From Tomocerus qinae (Eukaryota; Arthropoda; Collembola; Entomobryomorpha; Tomoceridae), in the NCBI GenBank assembly GCA_020055645.1, contig CM034549.1, positions 29,967,930-30,031,929 of the forward strand: a stretch of DNA of 64,000 nt, written 5' to 3'. The notes below the pieces were generated by a model. That model was not told the origin of the DNA, did no database searches, and saw nothing but the letters and a program-made list of their open reading frames with translations. Position 1 is the first letter of the stretch, and the number at the start of each line of letters is the position of its first letter. Shown here piece after piece: positions 5,701-62,252 of this stretch. A program made the position numbers and the translations under genes.

Positions 5701-8700
5701 GAAAATTATTGGTAACTACTTTTGCATACCTATCACCTGATGCGTCTCATTCAAAAATAGATAGGGAGGGATTGAATAAATACGTATAAATTATGTATGG
5801 TAAAAGCACTTAAGTGTTGTGGTACTCAAAATTGGAATCCTAGGAACTTAAAAAACTGCTAACAGAGTACATAAACCGATAAACAATGGAAATTGTAACA
5901 GCAATATTGTAAGCAAATCAAACAATTTTCTCGAAAAATCAAGGTTTGTAAAAAACTCGACCCGCCATTCGATTCAAGTGCATTTGTAATGGTACAAAAT
6001 TTCAAGGGCATTAATAATTAATGCCCTTGAAATTTTGTACCAGGGGGCAGGGGGGACATTTACTCCCTAAAACCTTAAAACTTTTCTCCTTTTCCTTTCT
6101 CGCTTTTCTCTCATTTTTGTTTTTCTCAATTTCTGTATTCAAAATTATTTAAAATTGCGAAATATATTCAAAATTCTTCAAAATTAATCTAAAATACTAA
6201 ATAAATTCAAAATTACTCAAAATTACTAAAAACATCTAAATTAAAAACTACTAAAAAAAGCATAATGGAACCACGTGGCTGTTGCAAGTTGGGTCAAAAT
6301 GTTATTATGACGGCTATGAAGTCAATAGCATGTTTTAATCTCTTTCAGCAGCCAATATGAAACGAAAAACTGGGTACAGTCTTCGGGGGAGCAGTTACTG
6401 TACCCATGATAATTGCATTTTTCCTAGTTAAGTTAAACGTATGCAGCGAAACTTCAAGCTTCAGCTTATTCTGGCTGCAGAAAGAGTCGGGAATTGGAAT
6501 CAGAATCAGCGTATAACTTTTAATGGACCACCTTGTGCTGTTATATGTGGGGAAGCAAGCGTTATTTTCAGTTTAGAAAAGTCACCACTATGTCATTACC
6601 ACTAGTTACGTTGAATTTTATACAAAAACCTTCTCTGTTTGTTTGGGTACTCTGCTGTCGACTCATTTTTGATGGGGATTCGGGTAACTCCTGTATGGAC
6701 GATTGCTAATATTTTTATTTGCAAAATTACGATTTATGATCCGCCCTTATTGACTGGGGGTTCTGAATTAGCGATAACTGATTAACTACAGCAATACAAT
6801 TTTTAGGTACCATTAATCTATTTCTAATTACCTGTTACTCAAATCACCTTTAATGTGGTAAACTAACAACAACATGGACTTGTATCTATACTTTTCTGAA
6901 TTTACTACTTGTCTCACACCCACACAGGAAAATCTATGCTGGAGGGAAGGAAATGAAAATATATTGGAAACCTCTACGAGTAAAATCCGTCATTCGATGC
7001 GAAGGAAACCCCGTAGAAAGAGACAGCTATGAAGATAGATGATGCCCTAGGGATATCTAAAGATTTTAAACCTACTTTCTATATCATAATACTAATCTTT
7101 CTGTAGATTTGCCACATTCATAATCGAGGTAATTGATATATTATTTGAATAGGTACTTTGTTAGGAAGCTTTTTGTAATGGGCGAAAACAGAATTTCATG
7201 CCTCAGGACTACATTTCGCATTTAGGGGTAAATAAAATTATCTAGTTCGAACTCCGTTACAATTCAGAAGAAAATATCTGACCTTTTAGCGATTGCCTTT
7301 GTGAAATGTATAACCTTTCTATAAGAATCGAAATAAAATATTGAAAGATATTGTAGCTAAGAACAGAATCGGACAGCCTGGAATCGATAAAATTTATCTG
7401 TAGAATCTCCTGAGCAAAATGCAATTTGAAGTAACAAAGTTGGTAAATCTATGTAATTGTAATTCTGGAGCGCGTGTCACCTGTAACGTTTATTTGCTTC
7501 TGGATTAAAGCTATTTTTAACATTTAGACACGTAGCTTGCATTATCTGCAGCACTTGCTCTGCATATACATTCCGAGGAGCAACTACTTCTGCACCTCAG
7601 CATCAATTACAGATATTACCTGTACTTACCTACGCAGAGCTACTTGGAAAATGTCTTTTATTGCCAACAATAAGACTCCCTCCACTTCTCTCGAACCATC
7701 CAACCTGATAGATTTGTGGCCCATTGTAATTTACATTCCAGTAAACAAATGCTGTTCAGCATCGAGTGCTAAGTGTAAGTATACTAGCATTAGCGATTGT
7801 CTGTAGAAGATACAATCAATTTGACCCGAGGAAGCACAAAGATCCCATTCCAGACTCCTAAAATAGAGGTGCTGTAACGTTTACAGCCACAATTACTGAA
7901 TTGCTCTTATTAGCTTGTAAGAGCTTCCAGCAGAGCAATTACAGGCCACCTGTCATACGGAGCAATGTGGCCACCACTAATCTTTGTCATCTACTTAGTC
8001 AGCCAGATTCATTTACTAATAGCCATAATAAATTAAGTATAATACGACGCCTTTGGTTACATTTGGATTTCGAATTATAAATTTCCATTTATTCATTTTA
8101 GGTACTATAAGTGCATAACAGGGCATCAAAAATTATTCCATCTTCCTTAGAACTGTCTTTGTCAAAGAATATTACTTGGTCATTTATTAGTAAAATGGAC
8201 AAATTGATCTGTGTACAAATCGTTGCTTGTGAATTACAAAACCGAGATACCCTATTTTTCTAAAATTTTCCAGGATTTCCGTCATTTTGAAGAATTGTCA
8301 TCTCCATTTACAATTATGTACTCAATTCAAAGGTGGTCCAATTGCCTATTGTAGACAAATTGTTTTATAATACTCACTTATTTAGTTATATTAAACACAA
8401 AGAATACAAATGAACTCGATACATATAACTTAACAATTAGAATTGCATTTCAAAATGAATACGTCGTAAACGGAAATACCTACCTAATAAGCTGTATATA
8501 CTACTTCAGTTACTTAATAACATTATTACTCTGCTTTGTCATCTAACTAAGATACCTGCAGTATAGATTGCAGGATGGAGAAACGAACGGTAAGAAGGAA
8601 CTAATATTTCCAATATGTTCAAAGTGGTGATTTATTTGTCCGTGCAGTACAACCCACCAACTTACTAGCGACACAGATATTGAGTCGCATCACATTTCAG

Positions 8701-11700
8701 ACAGAGCAATAAGTTTTGAATAGGAAAGGAAACATTCCACAAACTATTACATTGCAACAGAAAACCAACAACTCCGCCTTCTTTTCTTTAGGAAAAACTT
8801 TCAATGCAGTTGCAATAAACTTAAGAAAAACAAACACATTAGTTTCGTAAACCTAGAACTTAAGTACTTTCGCAAACAATTAATTCTGTAATCTGATTAT
8901 GCACCAAACATTGATGCTATATAATAGTTACTAATGTCTAACAGATTCCTACTTTCCTATTTGCATTCTTACATAGCTTCTTTAAATTTAAGGCTATTTT
9001 CTCAGTTGTTACGCTGTTCAAGGCAATTTACCGATCTGCAGAATTATATCTTTAAATAGAATACATAAGTACAAATTGTTGTACGTGAGTAAACTCTGTT
9101 TTTGAAACAAATAAATAAATAAAAACACTACACTAAAATTATCTAAGTAGTAATTGTTTGATTAGAAATAATTTTCAGTTCTCGTGCAGTAGAATTTGAT
9201 TTAAATGCAAGTACAGTTGGGTAACTGACAAGCGTTAGTTTAAAGTTCAGAATTTCTATTCGTTTTCCCCATTTGAAGGGATAGGGACTTCTTAAAGGTT
9301 GTTAACACATGCTTTTAGGTACATTTAATGAGAGAATGTTCCAACTATAGATATAAATTTTATTGCCTTTGGATTGAGAGTGGTCTGAGTACGGTAATGA
9401 ATGTCACACATTGACAATAAAGGATATTTGAGCGCTGGACCAGACTTGTTGGAACCGATTGTAGTGCAACGTGATTCTTTCGAAGTTTAATAGTACACAT
9501 TGTAAACCATTTAACATGCATCATTGACAAAGTGTATTGCCTACTTCAAAGGAACGTACTTTGATATGCATCCGGTCTGTAGCATCAATAATACGACAAC
9601 AGTCATCATTTACCTATATTATGGCTTATGTGTACCCTACTTACGTGTAATAAGGTGTTTGGTATACAGAAATATCGAATTACTAAATATGTAGCGGTAG
9701 TAAGTAGTAGCAGGTATCCCCACTCATCCCGCATAAATAGAAACTCAAAGCGACCTTTAACAACTTGGGTAGGGCAGAGCAAAGAAAGCTTAATGGAATA
9801 ATAATTCACCGTGACTTGAGTAACTACCGATTTGCGTTTCTAACTCACAATCTCTGACGGTTGTTAGATAAATTTGATTCCTTGACTCATTCATGAACTT
9901 TTCAAACTGCGTAGAAAGGAAAATACTGGCAATTTACACATCTTGAAAATTGTATCCTACCGATAAAAAGAGTCTATAAACATGCGAGGAATTTATTCCT
10001 TTTAAAATTTCGAACTGATTTAGTTAAATTCTAAGTCATACCTAGATTAGATAATATTTTAGTTTTGAAGACTGATTGAGGAGGACAGTTATTATTTTTT
10101 GATATTTAGTACATCTGTTCCGAATTTCATTCAATTTCTCCAAGCTGTATATATACTATGTGTCATTATGGACAACAATTGAAAAACTAAAATATTTCTC
10201 ATAGCTTTTGTGATTTAACGCTTGAGAGGGATTGCTCTTTGCTTATACAAACGAAATAGCAAGAGAGATCACAATAGACATGCATTGACTCAGTCAGCAA
10301 TGGATTTAATGATGTTGATGGGCAGTCTTGACACTGAAGGTCCAGTTCAGTGCATCAAAGCTATGAATAAAGTAGTGTATTAATGGGAAATAGGAATTTA
10401 CCACCAGAGTATCTTTACATATGAAAATGGATAATATTTTTCTTAAAGATCTACCCATGCTTAGAAAATATCCAAGATTTAGCTTTTTGTAGGACCAGTT
10501 GAATTAATAGGTATAGGGAGTGTATGGACTATAAGTTGAGTCTATCTTATCTCATTATGCCCACGTAGAAGGGAATAAGGACGAAGTAGGAGAGATGAGA
10601 ACAGAAGAGTCAATTGATAGTTTGAAAATGTGCAAAGGAGAGTTTGAGTGACTTATTGTGGAAAATCAATTGTGAAGTGAATTGGTTTGTAGGTAAGAGA
10701 TGTAGTTCTGTAGAATTTATTTGTCAATCGACTAATGCGGGTGCTGATGTTGAGCTTGGCTTATTATGAGCAGTTAGCTGTTGTGAATGCAGTGAGAGAG
10801 AATGAAGTGTCCGCTCAGCTACGTAGTAAATTGGAGTAGAAAAGGAGCAGAAGTTGATATGGAAATTCAAGGAGGCCAGAATAAAAGGAGCAGCTGTGGA
10901 AAAATGACTTTTGAGAGACTTTGTGACAAAAGCGTGAAGCTATTTGTCCCTTTGAAATGAGTCTTTTATGAGAGTTTATGAGGTCCTTAGAGGGTCAATC
11001 ATGTCCAATATGCTCAGTTCATAGCCACCCTCAAAAGATCTTTTCACGCCGAGAAAGTGGCAAATATAGCCTTTGGCTCTCATTCACAGGCACAACAAAG
11101 TCAATCGTGTCAACCTATACTGACTCAGTCGCAAGTCATGTCAAGTCACACCAACTCAAGTCAAGCCTCGTTTCATTTAAGTACCCATTCCCATCTAAAT
11201 ACTGAGGTGGAGTGCAATTCAATACAAAAGAGATCCCTCTTTCTCAACAAGCAATATATTTCCAATTTTCTGTTAAAGGACACCATTAGATTTTACGTTG
11301 CCCTTACTCAACCATTAAAGTCCTTATTTCCCTACCATTATGACTTAAACGTTATTTATTATTCTAAATGATTTCCCTATGCAACAGTCTCAAGTGCTCC
11401 ACTACTTATAACTTACTAACTTATGGCTTTAAAATGATGACGGAAGGAAGATGTAGGCAGAAAGCGAAAAGGATCCTTCTTAATTGTTTACATTTATAAG
11501 AAAATATATACAGTCCAGTCACTATTTACTATATTCTTAGGTTTTGGGTTAGAAATGTAGGAGAGGAATAAGAAGCAAAGCAATCTTCTTGAGTTATAGT
11601 ATACTCTTGTCGTTGATCCAACAATAAAATGACAACAATAGACTTTACAGTGGCCAACCATCCAGCAACAGCACGCATTATTATTGTCGTGAGGCAAGTG

Positions 11701-34390: not shown

Positions 34391-35200
34391 CTGCAAAGAT
34401 AAACAAATGCAAAAATAAATTGTCAATATTAAAATTATGCCCAATAATTCGACAACAATGATAACCACGAATGAGTTGACATCAGCAACCATATTTTATG
34501 AGCAATATGATTTTTGAATTTACGAGAATTGCATAAAACAATTAGATCAGCCGTCTGGCTCTGGTTCACTATCTTACCCATTGACTTGATGTCACTAGTC
34601 CCTAGTTGCTATAAATAATAGAAAATCTGCAATTGAGGGGTTGACTTTTCCAGCGGGATGAATGATTGAATCGATTTAAGACAAATTATTAAATAGGCAA
34701 TGTGAACTTGAAAGTCAAAAGTCGTCAATTTGGCAATTATTGATGGCAAACACAAAGATATTTGCAATTCTATTTCGTTCTTGTTCACTTCAGATATCAA
34801 AAGCATTAGTAATAATAATAAATAATTTCGTAAACCCCAGGATGCGTGGGCACGTGAAAGATCAGTACTGGGAGAACAGCCTTTAGCTGCATGCATTGCA
34901 ATTGTATTGCGTTGTTGCGATATGTGTGTATGAGGGGAGATCTGTGTCACAAATGAAACTTTCCTAGAACCCAGAATATTCCTTGCCATACTCAGAATAT
35001 AGTGCACAGAATTCTCTTCGCAGAACGCAGATAATTTTTCCTAGAATGCAGATTAATCTTCCTAGAACGCAGAATATTTTTTGCAGGTCATAATTTTTTC
35101 TAGAATGCAGATTATTCTTCCTAGAACGCAGAATATTTTTTGCAGGTCTGAATATTCTTCTTAAAACGCAGAATATTTTACATAAAACGTAGAATATTTT

Positions 35201-35340
35201 ACCTAAAACGCAGAATATTTTACCTAAAACGCAGAATATTTTACCTAAAACGCAGAATATTTTACCTAAAACGCAGAATATTTTACCTAAAACGCAGAAT
35301 ATTTTACCTAAAACGCAGAATATTTTACCTAAAACGCAGA
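35201..35340. repeat. 21-bp tandem array (six full copies and a partial seventh)
   Basis: Units start at 35201, 35222, 35243, 35264, 35285, 35306 and 35327, each beginning ACCTAAAACGCAGAATATT. The full copies are identical by eye. Confidence 0.92.
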
Positions 35341-35481
35341 ATATAGGAAGAAACGCAGAATATAGGAAGAAACGCAGAATGTTCTTCCTATAACCCAGAA
35401 TATTCTTCCTATAACCCAGAATATTTATCCTAAAACGCAGAATATTCTTCCTAAAACGCAGAATATTCATCCCAAAACGCG

Positions 35482-35663
35482 GAATATTCTTCCCAATCGT
35501 ATACGCAGAATATTCTTCCCAATCGTATACGCAGAATATTCTTCCCAATCGTATACGCAGAATATTCTTCCCAATCGTATACGCAGAATATTCTTCCCAA
35601 TCGTATACGCAGAATATTCTTCCCAATCGTATACGCAGAATATTCTTCCCAATCGTATACGCA
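35482..35663. repeat. 26-bp tandem array, seven identical copies
   Basis: Units start at 35482 and every 26 bp up to 35638. Each starts GAATATTCTTCCCAATCG and ends TATACGCA. All seven look identical, which points to recent expansion or homogenisation. Since 26 is not a multiple of three, the minus strand reads as a 26-residue super-repeat. Confidence 0.93.
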
Positions 35664-35737
35664 GAATATTCTTCGTAGATACGCAGAATATTTGGCACAT
35701 ATTCTCCCCCCATACCTAGAATTTTTGTCTACAGCCA

Positions 35738-42498: not shown

Positions 42499-43410
42499 TC
42501 CTCCTAATTTACATAAAAGGCTTTCCACAGCCTTTGCCCCTTAACCAAAATGAAAACAAAGTGAAAAGAAATTAATTTTTAACCCTGAAGAAAAATATTC
42601 CAAAAACTAAATTTCATACAATATCCGTATAACTAACAAACTATACTTCTATATTAAATTACGTTTCAACCATTCATTACATCATACATTATATCATAGT
42701 ATCCAGAATTTTAACATTAAATCCAATACATCATATAAATCCCACAAATTCCATAATAATAATTTCATCAAAACATTATTTTTAAAATTATAACTTCAAT
42801 TTCAACGAAAATAATATAAAATCACAATTAATTTATATTCGATGCGATGTATTCTCATTTTCTCTCGAGCTCTGAACGTTGATTACGTCCACAGGAGCAA
42901 TATGCGGCTATCGTCTTTGCCAAACGAGCACGATCGTTGCCGTTAAGATCATCATGTCACAATTTGACATCTCTGTAGCTCTCAATTTAAGGTCTCAGTC
43001 TCTCGAAAAATAAGACAAGCATACACATCAGCTCAAATTACACACTGAAATTCATCATAAAAATACAATTAGAACATTTTCATTACATTTTAAATTAACC
43101 TTTTTCATTTTTACCATTTTAAATCAAACCAAACTTAATTACTTTCCTTACTTTATATTATTGAGATCATAATACATACTGTTTCTTACTTTCAGGGGGC
43201 ATACTTCATTTCTCAAAATCAAAATCAACATAATATTATTCTACTTTTCATTTCATCAAAATTAAATCAAACATTACTTCATTATTAAACTCAAAAAATC
43301 ATATTTTAAACTATACTCTTCATTTCAAAATCTCCAAACATTAAACACATCCTTTCCTTAGTGCACTGCACTTTTATAAACACCTTTTTCCTACATTATA
43401 CTATCCTATT

Positions 43411-43690
43411 TACCTGGTATGAACCTTCAGGCTATTATTTTTATGTAGCTGGTATGCTCCTTCAGGCTAACATCTTTATGTTCCTGGTATGCTCTTAACT
43501 TACTTAACCCTATTTATCTTATTATTATGTACTGGTATGCTCCTTCAGACTATCTTAACTTACTTAACCCTATTTATCTTATTATTATGTACTGGTATGC
43601 TCCTTCAGGCTATCTTTTTCATGTACCTGGTATGCTCCTTCAGTTTATCATAAATTACTTAACCCTATTTACCTGGCATCAATCTTCAGG
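43411..43690. repeat. Tandem array with CTGGTATGCTCCTTCAGG core inside the LTR element
   Basis: Seven full or partial copies of the core occur, spaced about 35-60 bp. One exact 60-bp tandem unit is visible: the lines starting at 43501 and 43561 are identical for 48 bases. The outermost copies are diverged (CCTGGTATGAACCTTCAGG, CCTGGCATCAATCTTCAGG). Confidence 0.88.
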
Positions 43691-57050: not shown

Positions 57051-60000
57051 ATGAAATTCGTGAAGAAATTGAAGCGGCTGGGGAAAGGAAAACAGCAGAA
57101 AGAAAAGCGTCCCAATCGAAAGCCGAAAAATGTCAAAGATTTTGAAGAAGAGGAGAGCGATCACGAAGCTGGGGAGGAGAATATAGTTCCAGTTGGAAAT
57201 GCTGATGAAAACCAGTTTGAAGAAGAAGAAGATGACGCTAATGGGTGGAAGAAAAAAAAGAAGAGTGGTGGCTTCCAGAGTATGGGCCTAAGTCCTTTGG
57301 TTTTGAAAGGAATCTTGCGAAGAGGCTACAAAGTACCTACTCCGATTCAGAGAAAGGTTTGCAAAATCATATGTTGAGATTGCAGTGCATTTTTGAATCT
57401 ATTTAATATCCTGAATCCTGAAAATGGTGATCAAATATCACTCCTAAAAACATATTTTGATTATTTGACAGAGTATTCCGATAATTTTGGAGGGTAAGGA
57501 TGTAGTGGCTATGGCAAGAACTGGAAGTGGGAAAACAGCAGCTTTTCTTATACCTCTTTTTGAGAAACTACAGGTGAATAAAATCGGCGTGGGTCATATT
57601 GCAAAATTCCCAAGGGCATTAATTTTGTCCCCCACCAGAGAATTGGCTACCCAAACTATGAAGTTTTTCCGAGAAATAGGGAAGTTTCTTAACTTGAAGG
57701 TAGTGTCGGTTCTTGGAGGAGATTCGATGGAAAGTCAGTTCTCTGCTCTACATGAGAAACCGGATGTCATAATTGCAACTCCTGGACGATTTATGCATCT
57801 TTGCGTGGAGATGAACTTTAAACTTGATGGAGTTGAGTACATTGTATTTGATGAAGCAGATAGGTTGGTCAATTTTCCTTAGTTCTCTAATACTATTTAA
57901 TACTCCGTCAAATATAATTAAGATTATTTTTAAGTACATATTATTTCTTATTTGAGAATTAAGCAGCTTTACAAAATATATTTCGTTGCAGATTATTTGA
58001 AATGGGATTTGGCGAACAATTATCTGAAATTATAAAGAGACTCCCGGACAGTCGTCAAACCGTTTTATTTTCAGCAACGCTCCCTAAACTTCTAGTAGAT
58101 TTTACTAAAGCTGGACTTCATGACCCTACTTTGATAAGGTAAGGTATCCAATATTTGCCAACATATCTAACATTTAAAAGTGATCCATGAATATTAAAAT
58201 CCAAGCAATCGATTGCAATCGTTGGATGTCAATGTTAATCATTAACATTTGTATGTTTGTATTCAGATTGGATGTTGATACGAAACTTTCGGAACGATTG
58301 AGTCTTCAGTACCTAGGTTGCCGTTCAGAAGACAAATTGGCAGTATTACTGTATTTGTTAAAAAATGTGATCGATGAAAGGGATCAGACATTAGTGTTTG
58401 TTGCTACCAAACATCACGTCGAGTTTTTACATCTGGTTCGTCGAAATATTATTTTGATTCATTATGTGTATTGTGTGTCTGTCTGTAAGCTGTGAGACCA
58501 TGGTAGGTAACTTAAAACAGTGTCTTACATACCCAAGTGAATATGGAACAATTTATTTATGGAATACTGTTTAATTAATGTTTATGCAACCCAATCTCTT
58601 TTCATCTTAATAACCGCATGTATGATTCATGCTCCAAAATTTTGTACGTAAATAGCATGCTATTCAAGCTTATTCCCTATTCAAGTTAATGAAATGACGA
58701 CCATTTATTGAAAATCATTAAAAAACAAATTGCCTGTGACATAATGACACAACAATGCTGGTGCTTATATTTTATAAATATGACATCCCTTTTCAAAAAT
58801 TCTGTTAAATGTTTTCTGTTAACTTACTACCTGGAGTTGCTGAAGTTAGATTAGTAAATATAATAATGCAATTAGAATGGAACTATAATATGGTGTAATA
58901 TTATGGCAACTTCAATATAAATGAACTCAACTCTTACAGTTATTAGAAGAATCGAATATTTCAAATTGCTACATATACTCCAGCCTGGATGCTTCAGCTA
59001 GAAAAATATCTCTTGGCAAATTTCGCAGTGGCAAAACAAACGTAATGATAGTGACGGATATTGCTGCTCGAGGCATTGATATTCCTGTGCTGGACAACGT
59101 TATTAATTTCCACTTTCCTGCTAAACCTAAACTGTTTATGCATAGAGTTGGTAAGCTTAATATTTTTATTTTATCTGAAGTCATAAACCTATATCAAGTA
59201 AGTAAGCTTTAACAAAGTAATAAGATTTAACACTTATAATTTATTTAACAGGTCGTGTTGCTAGAGCTGGAAGAAGTGGCACAGCGTACTCCATCGTTGC
59301 TCCCGATGAAGTTGCATTTATGTATGATTTACATTTGTTCCTTGGGAAGCCCTTAAAATTTACAGATAACGAATCATCTGGTAGCAACTCTGTATCTGTA
59401 GGTCGTCTCCCTCAAGATCTTTTGAATGAAGAAAATAGTTTTGTAAAACAGCTGTTAGAAATCAAATTTGACTTGGTACGTTTTGTTGCTGCATTTATGC
59501 TATTTATTGAGTTTATATTGTAGATTATGGAGTTGGAGGTTATGACTTTATACCTTCATGGCCAGTGCAGTGGCCGTAGTACTACAGAGTACAATGGTAT
59601 CATTTTCGTCGGTATTATGAGTATTTGTCGTTGTTATTGCTCGTTTTCTAACTTTTTTTTGATTTGATGATGTTTAATTTCAGGCTGGCTTGAATAAAGT
59701 AAGCAGAAATGGTTACGCACAATATTTAAAGAGTAGACCTAATGCATCCACGGAGAGTAATAAGCGAGCCAAAGGTATAGAAGTGTCACATCTTCCTATT
59801 CATCCGATGTTTCAAAGCAGAATAAATGCAGACCCGATGGAAAGTTTAATTTCTCAAATGCAAAGCTACAGACCTCATTCGGTAAGTGTGTATGATATGA
59901 CGAACAAATTTCTAAACTAGATTTAACTGTTGGATACATCACAAAGAGGTAATTAATTAAATATGTGACCCCTCTAGACGATATTTGAAATTGGTCCTAA

Positions 60001-61085
60001 AGCTGGATCAGAAACTCATAGAATAATGAAATTGAAAAGACAAAGAGATCAAACGGTTGTTGAAAAGTACCGAAGTGGTAAAATTGGTGGTCCAGATGCC
60101 ATGGAAGATGAAGATCAGTCAGGGACAGGGAAAAGGGACGAGGAAAATTTTATCCATTATCTACCTAAAGATCATCATACAGAGTCTGGGTAAGTTACGA
60201 TGAGTGTAATATAATTATGATTGCAAGAGATGATTGCATTGTGTTCATATTTATTGTACCCTAGTGTTGCTTAACTTTGAGTCTTAGCTATTGTTTGTTG
60301 GTATACCGCCTAGCACGCACAAAAGCGTGGTATTCCGAGATTACGAGTCCAGATACTTACAATTATAATAATTTCTCTCAGTTTATCTGTTGGTACGACC
60401 TTCGACAAGCAGGTTCAAGATTCCGTCATGGATCTCACGGGTGATGACTCAGACAAGCTAAAGAGCCAGAGGAACATGCTCAAGTGGGATAAGAAAAAGA
60501 AGAAGTATGTATCGGTGGGAAAAGTAAGTTATTGTTAATTCTCTCCTATGGAACAGTAATTATGAACGAGATAATTTACCACTTTGTACTGACTTGATCA
60601 TGTGCATGGACATTTACAAGAATTTCAACTCGCCATATGCCATGTTCATTTGATTTTTTCTGTGAGTCATACTTTGTATAGACAGACGCCTAAAATCTCC
60701 TATCTTAACCCGTGTGAATTTTTTATTTCAGGATAGCCACACTAATGCTAAGAAAATAAAAACTGAGTCAGGATCCTGGATATCAGCTTCCTACAAAAGT
60801 AACCGATACAAAGCGTGGAAAGAGAAGTCTAAAGTTGAAAAACAAACGGAAGGCGATGACAATGAAAATGATGATGATGATGATAATTTTAGTCAAAAAC
60901 CTTTTCAAGATTCTAATCGCAAACCAACGTTTTCTAAAAAACTAGTAAAAACAGGGAATGCTGCTCCTAGAGGAACTGTTGAGAAGAAATCTATGCGCTT
61001 CAAGTCGGAAATTAAAAGACCTGAGCAAATTCTTAAAAGTCGAAAAGACAAAGAGAAAAAGATGATGCAGAACTCTAAAGCCTAA
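57051..61085 (+). CDS. DDX54: DDX54/Dbp10 DEAD-box RNA helicase, C-terminally truncated by a transposon
   Basis: Ten exons (57051-57356, 57472-57863, 57992-58138, 58267-58435, 58940-59150, 59252-59475, 59684-59881, 59978-60189, 60382-60523, 60732-61085) encode 784 residues. After a basic and acidic N terminus come the Q motif ([12 protein letters not shown]...PTPIQ, about 72-99), motif I ARTGSGKT (117-124), PTRELA, TPGR, DEAD (229-232), SAT (260-262), [12 protein letters not shown] and [13 protein letters not shown] (406-418). The later [25 protein letters not shown] and [15 protein letters not shown] segments are typical of the DBP10 C-terminal domain. The enzyme acts in the nucleolus in large ribosomal subunit assembly (known for yeast Dbp10 and DDX54). 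The last exon is interrupted after codon 783 by a 917-bp inverted-repeat element that supplies one Ala codon and a stop. The original tail persists at 61999-62107. The helicase core and DBP10CT are intact, so activity may remain. Confidence 0.95.
61076..61078. repeat. Target-site duplication TAA, left copy
   Basis: TAA at 61076-61078 precedes the element, and TAA at 61996-61998 follows it. A TAA/TTA duplication is the mark of PIF/Harbinger transposition. Confidence 0.8.
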
Positions 61086-61095
61086 ACTAAAGTCG
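61079..61095 (+). repeat. Left terminal inverted repeat of the element
   Basis: AGCCTAAACTAAAGTCG, exact reverse complement of 61979-61995. Its TAA at 61083-61085 is the stop codon now used by DDX54. Confidence 0.93.
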
Positions 61096-61978
61096 AATAT
61101 TTAAGTGAGTTTCAAAGTTTACGTTCACGATCACGTTTGAGCGAAATGTGACGGAATAGTTATAGTTTACTGTTTGGTTACTTTAGTTGTCGTTTCATTT
61201 CCAGTTTAAAATATAAACTGAATGCTCCGTGGCTATACTTCAATTTTACACAACGGCAACTGGAGCTAAACTTAAACTGAACACTCTCGTAGCTATACTT
61301 GACGATCACCGATCTCGATAGACCAAAAAGTAAAATGTGGCCAGCGTTTATTATTATTACCTTCCAATTCCATTTGTGAAGCAATCGAAGACCACGCGTT
61401 GACTTTTTTTAAATGATCTTTATAGCTCTATCACTTTTATCATACAGATATGGATGCTCAATTACCACAGTTATCAGTTTTTCTTCGATTTCTACAGTAT
61501 CGTTATTTGTAGACATTTTGATTGAAATTTAAATCCTTTTTCTTGATTGTCCGAAATAATATCGATGATGCAAAAATGGAAGACAGCAAACAGACAGGTA
61601 GATCAGTTGATTTGAAACATAATGGCAACTTGCAATCGCGTCTTGTAGCAGAATTCTGCTTCGCCATTGGTCAAAAGCATAACTGAATACGTTTCGATCA
61701 GTTTCCAAATCGGCTGCCGTTGGGTTGTTGAAACGTGATAAGTTTCGAGAAACTGTAATTAAACTGGATCGGAAACTGAACAGTATAGTTACGACAAAAT
61801 GAAAATGGAACCACAACGCAATCTCACCGTGATCGTGATCTGAACAGTATAGTTACGGGAAACTCATCGGTAACTGAAACTAACCTTAATCATGAACTAA
61901 AACCAAATAGATACGGACAGTATAGTTATGAAATCATGAACTACACCGTGAACTGACTAAGTTTTGCCTTCAAACCTG

Positions 61979-61995
61979 CGACTTTAGTTTAGGCT
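61979..61995 (-). repeat. Right terminal inverted repeat of the element
   Basis: CGACTTTAGTTTAGGCT, exact reverse complement of the left end, followed by the right TAA copy and the displaced DDX54 tail. Confidence 0.93.
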
Positions 61996-61998
61996 TAA

Positions 61999-62107
61999 AG
62001 GTAAAGGGAAGGGGAAGAAAGGAAAAGGAAATAAAGGTGGTTTCGGAGGAAGCAAGAAAAAGTTCGATGGCGGCGGAAGAAGTAAAGGGAAAGGGAAGAA
62101 GTTTTAA
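61999..62107 (+). pseudogene. DDX54: Displaced C-terminal tail of DDX54 (35 codons plus stop)
   Basis: In the frame of DDX54 exon 10, once the element and one TAA are left out, this stretch reads a Lys/Gly-rich tail (starting GKGKGKKGKGNKGGFGGSKK, ending SKGKGKKF) and a TAA stop at 62105-62107. An RGG/KG-rich end is common in nucleolar RNA helicases. It has no stop, frameshift or obvious decay, so the insertion is recent or the tail is still expressed in some allele. I found no in-frame GT-AG splice that would remove the element and restore it. Confidence 0.85.
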
Positions 62108-62246: not shown

Positions 62247-62252
62247 AATAAA
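62247..62252 (+). terminator. Polyadenylation signal AATAAA of DDX54
   Basis: AATAAA lies 139 bp after the original stop at 62107 and about 1.16 kb after the stop now imposed by the element, so it is best explained as the signal of the uninterrupted gene. Confidence 0.55.

Follow-up and report, generated by a model that had tools for sequence, protein, structure and literature searches.

The MITEs of the PIF/Harbinger transposons are Tourist-like elements. The transposons themselves are defined in PMC4482050 by a TWA target-site duplication, a first base that is usually A or G, and terminal inverted repeats (TIRs) mostly shorter than 60 bp; PMC9710019 gives TIRs of about 15 bp. PMC4482050 also describes the NuwaII group of the PHIS superfamily, with the target C|TNA|G. 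For the yeast helicase Dbp10, PMC11024185 reports that cells do not survive removal of the entire C-terminal tail, even if a nucleolar signal is added, that growth is unaffected when single tail modules are removed, and that the extreme C-terminus contains a predicted nucleolar signal. Here we describe a springtail locus in which, as we conclude with high confidence, a PIF/Harbinger MITE was recently inserted in the Dbp10 homolog DDX54 and truncated its basic tail.

DDX54 and its interrupted last exon

The window analyzed is a stretch of 64,000 nucleotides of Tomocerus qinae, located at C4:29967930-30031929 in an assembly that totals 334 Mb over 115 contigs. It encodes a protein with a DEAD-box core and a DBP10CT domain, the latter spanning exons 9 and 10, which assigns the gene to DDX54/Dbp10. 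Exon bounds were placed by reading the genomic sequence rather than RNA; all nine introns are GT-AG, and the spliced frame contains no internal stops. With the empty-site form as query, human DDX54 was the best match among solved structures (E 1.2e-216). The closest named DDX54 proteins are those of the springtails Allacma fusca (60% identity) and Orchesella cincta (59%), compared over the C-terminal part, and in the tree both form a clade with the window protein and four metagenome proteins (support 98/99). The features of the gene and of the insertion are as follows.

57051..61085, plus strand: DDX54 gene in its present form, with 10 coding exons and 784 aa
57051-57356, 57472-57863, 57992-58138, 58267-58435, 58940-59150, plus strand: DDX54 coding exons 1-5
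59252-59475, 59684-59881, 59978-60189, 60382-60523, 60732-61085, plus strand: DDX54 coding exons 6-10
61076..61078: left target-site duplication TAA
61079..61995: 917-bp PIF/Harbinger MITE in the last DDX54 coding exon (exon 10)
61079..61095, plus strand: left TIR AGCCTAAACTAAAGTCG, a perfect 17-mer
61083..61085, plus strand: premature stop TAA from the left repeat (bases five to seven of AGCCTAAACTAAAGTCG)
61979..61995, minus strand: right TIR, perfect partner of AGCCTAAACTAAAGTCG
61996..61998: right target-site duplication TAA
61999..62107, plus strand: separated C-terminal tail of DDX54 (35 residues, rich in Gly and Lys), in which the original stop is kept

The original prediction had located the two repeats, the TAA flanks, the stop and the in-phase tail frame, and re-reading of the sequence confirmed every one of these coordinates. 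The two AGCCTAAACTAAAGTCG ends are the sole sites in the window at three or fewer mismatches. Excision of 61079-61998 (the MITE plus one TAA) joins the exon to 61999-62107 in phase and yields an empty-site form of 818 aa with the C-terminus ...NSKGKGKGKKGKGNKGGFGGSKKKFDGGGRSKGKGKKF, while the filled-site form has 784 aa and ends in ...QNSKA, having lost 35 residues and gained one alanine. A 2-bp TA or a TTAA duplication was also considered and rejected: both leave unequal ends, and identical flanks are obtained only with TAA and 17-bp ends.

When the window was shuffled 60 times with dinucleotides preserved, three perfect 17-bp inverted repeats within 2 kb appeared, and their 3-bp flanks never matched; the ends and duplication of the MITE are not explained by chance. 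That the orphan tail has an open frame is by itself weak evidence, since 7.8% of composition shuffles also remain open; the weight is carried by the phase of this frame and by its resemblance to the tails of springtails.

Elsewhere in the window, a perfect hairpin (5990-6042; 26-bp arms, 1-base loop), units of 21 to 26 bp repeated in tandem inside a minus-strand open frame of 254 aa (35024-35692), and tandem repeats of 35-bp and 60-bp units (43407-43616; the 60-bp units 98% alike) were observed.

Copies of the MITE in the genome

The exact 17-mer end is present 76 times in the 334-Mb genome (38 forward and 38 reverse), compared with 0 and 0 for the reversed control, so the element is repeated, and the possibility that it is confined to this locus is excluded. 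A genome search with the element returned at least 42 matching rows, the window included, at least 37 of which (again with the window) span more than 900 bases of the 930-base query and are 97-100% identical to it; both counts are lower bounds, as 40 of the 76 candidates were scored. We took 39 further loci with their flanks, of which 32 carried full-length pairs with exact ends, giving 33 copies with that of the window. Five loci without an exact end pair were not counted: the partial L045, L046 and L047, and two that approach full length, L042 (98% identity) and L043 (97%). The identities of L042 and L043 indicate that the family also has older members.

Two more loci lie outside the full-length set. 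L025 (C2:37951852-37953878) is a head-to-tail pair of MITEs, 1825 bp in total and flanked by TTA duplications, and L044 (C1:59373975-59375550) is a 1375-bp copy flanked by ATA at either end and interrupted by some 450 bp of unrelated sequence. At L049 (C2:57951303), positions 9891-9917 hold a lone MITE-type end that shares only its last 27 bp with the MITE and has no partner within 4 mismatches in the 10 kb examined; it perhaps belongs to another family with the same terminus.

The full-length copies are strikingly uniform. The length is 917 bp in 32 of the 33 (911 bp in the remaining one), the duplications are TAA (19), TTA (12), TGA (1) and an imperfect TTA/TTC (1), and the window copy is letter-for-letter identical to 13 others. 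Substitutions occupy 14 columns, eight of which define a six-copy group and two a seven-copy group, leaving four singletons; one copy outside the six-copy group carries one of that group's marks. Counting the four singletons and this shared change gives about 5 changes per about 30,000 bases (1.7e-4 per site), none of which occurs in the window copy, which matches the commonest form throughout. The substitution rate of flies is near 3e-9 per site and generation, and at such a rate the whole burst would have an age of the order of 50,000 generations, in a sample that favors young copies because exact ends were required. The recency proposed in the original prediction is thus supported by the uniform length, the identical copies and the few substitutions: the family has undergone a very recent burst. 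The open frame of the orphan tail was dropped as a clock, as a stop is made by just 20 of 324 single substitutions in addition to the shuffle result above; copy identity is the better clock.

Among 35 joined insertion sites (the window and 34 loci), three have an open frame over 187 bp, and in the two outside the window no gene was recognized when judged by eye. Identical dispersed repeats are a known cause of assembly error, which raises the question of whether the insert was misassembled at the DDX54 site. We consider this hardly credible, given that both flanks come from one gene and are in phase, that the TAA duplication is clean and typical of the family, and that the other copies sit in different flanks.

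Larger elements with related ends

The internal features of the MITE, including those common to larger elements, are listed below.

61079..61323: left end common to the transposase-bearing element L048, 98% over 245 bp
61228..61299, plus strand: two copies of the subterminal motif C(A/G)T(A/G)(A/G)CTATACT, starting at 61228 and 61288
61348..61995: right part common to L048 (77%) and to the C3 element (78%)
61356..61528, minus strand: remnant of MADF exon 1, broken by a frameshift and a stop (tblastn E 3e-20)
61782-61793, 61846-61857, 61919-61930, minus strand: three copies of the subterminal motif in opposite orientation

All five copies of the 12-base subterminal motif in the window thus belong to the MITE, two near its left end and three, inverted, near its right end. 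The 7-base core of the motif has 19 occurrences outside the MITE, and none of 2000 random 917-bp pieces of the window contained more than two of them. No Pfam match was obtained for the open reading frames of the MITE (76 and 107 aa), and Rfam gave nothing at the gathering score, with two sub-threshold matches (E 0.78 and 0.87). A search of viral contigs with two exact patterns and a blastn search of plasmid records gave no match, and no further MITE copy with ends was detected in the window, where the BLAST matches were short and weak.

A transposase search of the genome yielded 121 rows, some of which are pieces of one gene. The best nine loci (L048, L051 with L055, and L068-L074) were looked at, and in all nine the transposase lies between MITE-like ends 4.4-5.9 kb apart. 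Their left ends are 83-98% identical to the MITE over about 245 bp and their right parts 76-82% over 390-658 bp. In three of the nine, the ends have at most one mismatch to the MITE 17-mer, with matching TTA or TAA flanks; the remaining six have diverged outermost ends, with no end at the expected place coming within 4 mismatches. L048 is a 5.3-kb element with TTA on both sides that matches the MITE in its first 245 bp and in a diverged right part. Its open 343-aa frame contains DDE_Tnp_4, the nuclease domain of Harbinger transposases (PF13359, E 1.2e-21), and two further frames jointly form a MADF domain (PF10545, E 5.6e-9 and 1.5e-4), which was tested in this one of the nine elements. A second larger element (C3:179274-185215) also has TTA on both sides and a 343-aa frame with DDE_Tnp_4 (E 1.2e-22).

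The MADF exon of L048 matches the MITE by tblastn as two pieces in different frames, and because this broken first MADF exon is retained, we interpret the MITE as an internal-deletion derivative of a larger element. None of the larger elements examined could be recognized as the exact source of the 917-bp burst, the closest being 98% identical on the left and 77% on the right. Several of the 121 transposase rows have open frames of at least 315 aa at only 42-50% identity, and the genome evidently harbors a large and varied Harbinger population. In L048, the forward frames at 543-1631 resemble a REX-type exonuclease by eye (e.g., ILVGHSVDQDLASL), gave no convincing Pfam match, and are possibly a captured host fragment.

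Transposon insertions begin as polymorphisms, and the insertion may be a heterozygous or low-frequency allele, with full-length DDX54 in most individuals. This is compatible with a recent MITE insertion, and we give it an even chance: the window copy has the commonest form, shared with 13 others, and transposase frames are open in the genome, whereas the DDX54 exon has a single match in the 115 contigs, although a collapsed assembly would look alike. In a further step, which we put forward as unlikely, the MITE would still be mobile in the only DDX54 of the genome, so that individuals or cells would alternate between the 784-aa form and, via precise excision, the 818-aa form. If true, the two forms would offer a natural and reversible way to test what the extreme C-terminus contributes to this ribosome-assembly helicase, which yeast cannot do without.

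An ancestral basic tail

Allacma, Orchesella and the four metagenome relatives all (6/6) continue beyond the RPEQIL-K-R motif, which reads RPEEIL in one springtail-like relative, with a basic tail. None of the six springtail-like relatives stops without a tail, so a shared early end is excluded. A query with the C-terminal part returned 11 proteins, of which six were inspected: four springtail-like proteins, one outgroup and P0130, a fragment ending short of the tail.

More broadly, 106 of the 120 homologs listed had a form of the motif recognized by the pattern. In these 106, the tail after the motif has a median length of 25 residues and a median net charge of +12, and it varies among homologs, compared with 13 residues and +3 in the truncated window form and 47 residues and +16 in the empty-site form. 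The tail is longer than that of the truncated form in 105 of the 106 and as short or shorter in one, and its charge is as low or lower in two. The 14 homologs without the pattern, left out of this count, nearly all end in a basic sequence by eye; in P0071, one of these 14, the motif is absent and the end looks different. From these comparisons the basic tail of DDX54 is evidently ancestral, and its retention in relatives and homologs argues for some function. The claim of the original prediction that exon 10 was interrupted at the expense of a 35-residue basic tail therefore holds, both in the two protein lengths (784 and 818 aa) and in the tail kept by the relatives.

Expected effect on transcript and protein

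One further feature is needed for the transcript.

62247..62252, plus strand: AATAAA, probable original polyadenylation signal

The MITE itself contains no AATAAA, only one ATTAAA at 61758 and other variants. Because the nearest AATAAA lies at 62247, the mRNA likely has a long 3' UTR composed of the transposon, the dead tail and the old UTR, which would now measure about 1.2 kb and could invite nonsense-mediated decay.

The segment might instead be spliced out between a donor in the upstream exon and an acceptor located where the MITE ends on the right, which would keep the tail. The AG acceptors at 61988, 61993 and 62001 do leave the tail frame open, and upstream GTs of the needed phases exist. 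However, the donor must precede the stop at 61083, and the best of the 11 GTs ahead of it reaches 2.8, compared with 7.7-10.9 for the donors that DDX54 normally uses; scores for the three acceptors range from -0.3 to 1.8, compared with 4.0-12.9 for the normal ones. The gene's own sites score high by construction, since the matrix was built from these nine sites. Such splicing would also remove part of the C-terminus ahead of the tail, and what would be spliced out is no conserved intron but a mobile element dispersed in the genome. A spliced intron is thus unlikely on its sequence features, and the complete reading with the tail retained is very improbable.

In the truncated protein, the stop at 61083 falls about where yeast Dbp10 ends, as Dbp10 958-992 (of 995) aligns with the springtail RPEQIL-K-R region; this stretch scores 0.0 bits, and the motif is plainly shared. 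Human DDX54 was aligned up to residue 848 of 881 and extends further. Because the cut falls just after the conserved motif, near the end of Dbp10, the loss is probably mild, and the truncation likely has a milder effect than loss of a functional domain would. Our best guess is a mild loss, maybe of nucleolar retention or rRNA contact.

It is also conceivable that the truncation is fixed and neutral, the lost residues being a dispensable lineage extension, which is likewise compatible with a recent MITE insertion. The Dbp10-like motif is kept, on the same 0.0-bit stretch, and according to PMC11024185 single yeast tail modules are dispensable for growth, the whole tail not. However, a basic tail is present in all six springtail-like relatives, and nearly all homologs counted have a longer one, so we hold fixation and neutrality as a tentative and somewhat doubtful reading.

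For the recent MITE insertion that we favor, the following course is proposed. A larger two-gene element would have been internally deleted to a non-autonomous PIF/Harbinger MITE, which a Harbinger transposase would then have moved, during the very recent burst, into a TAA site in the last coding exon of DDX54. Translation would now halt within seven bases of the insertion point, producing a protein that retains the helicase core, DBP10CT and the RPEQIL-K-R motif and lacks the last 35 basic residues. Ribosome assembly would probably go on with little or modest loss, and precise excision would restore DDX54. A fresh Harbinger MITE burst, with related transposase-bearing elements, has very probably placed a copy inside the frame of a conserved ribosome-assembly gene of a springtail. 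With the insertion as a marker, transposition that is recent or still ongoing could be followed in the population, and because the ancestral tail lies intact beyond the insert, the locus is a ready natural experiment on the need for the DDX54 basic tail.

Comparison with known systems

The MITE agrees with PIF/Harbinger elements and their MITEs in the following respects, and the family assignment made in the original prediction is borne out. The duplication is of the TWA type (TAA or TTA in 31 of the 33 full-length copies), the TIR is short (17 bp) and begins with A, and DDE_Tnp_4 is encoded by larger relatives with MITE-like ends, one of which, L048, also carries the second gene, a Myb/SANT-like MADF protein. 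The copies are short, non-coding, uniform in length and numerous, as in MITEs, and represent an internal-deletion derivative amplified in a burst. The springtail family differs in having its own ends, its own subterminal motif and the 917-bp length.

The target sites were also compared with the C|TNA|G of NuwaII given in PMC4482050: with the sites turned to read TTA, C precedes the duplication in 19 of 33 and G follows it in 18 of 33. At 32 of the 33 sites the central base of the duplication is A or T, as in PIF/Harbinger proper, and at the window site the duplication is preceded by C and followed by A.

Compared with Dbp10/DDX54 proteins, the window protein retains DBP10CT and the motif that aligns with the yeast Dbp10 end, whereas its basic extension beyond the motif is cut off. 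Truncation of a gene by a transposon is a known kind of event, of which the DDX54 case is a clear and unusually fresh example.
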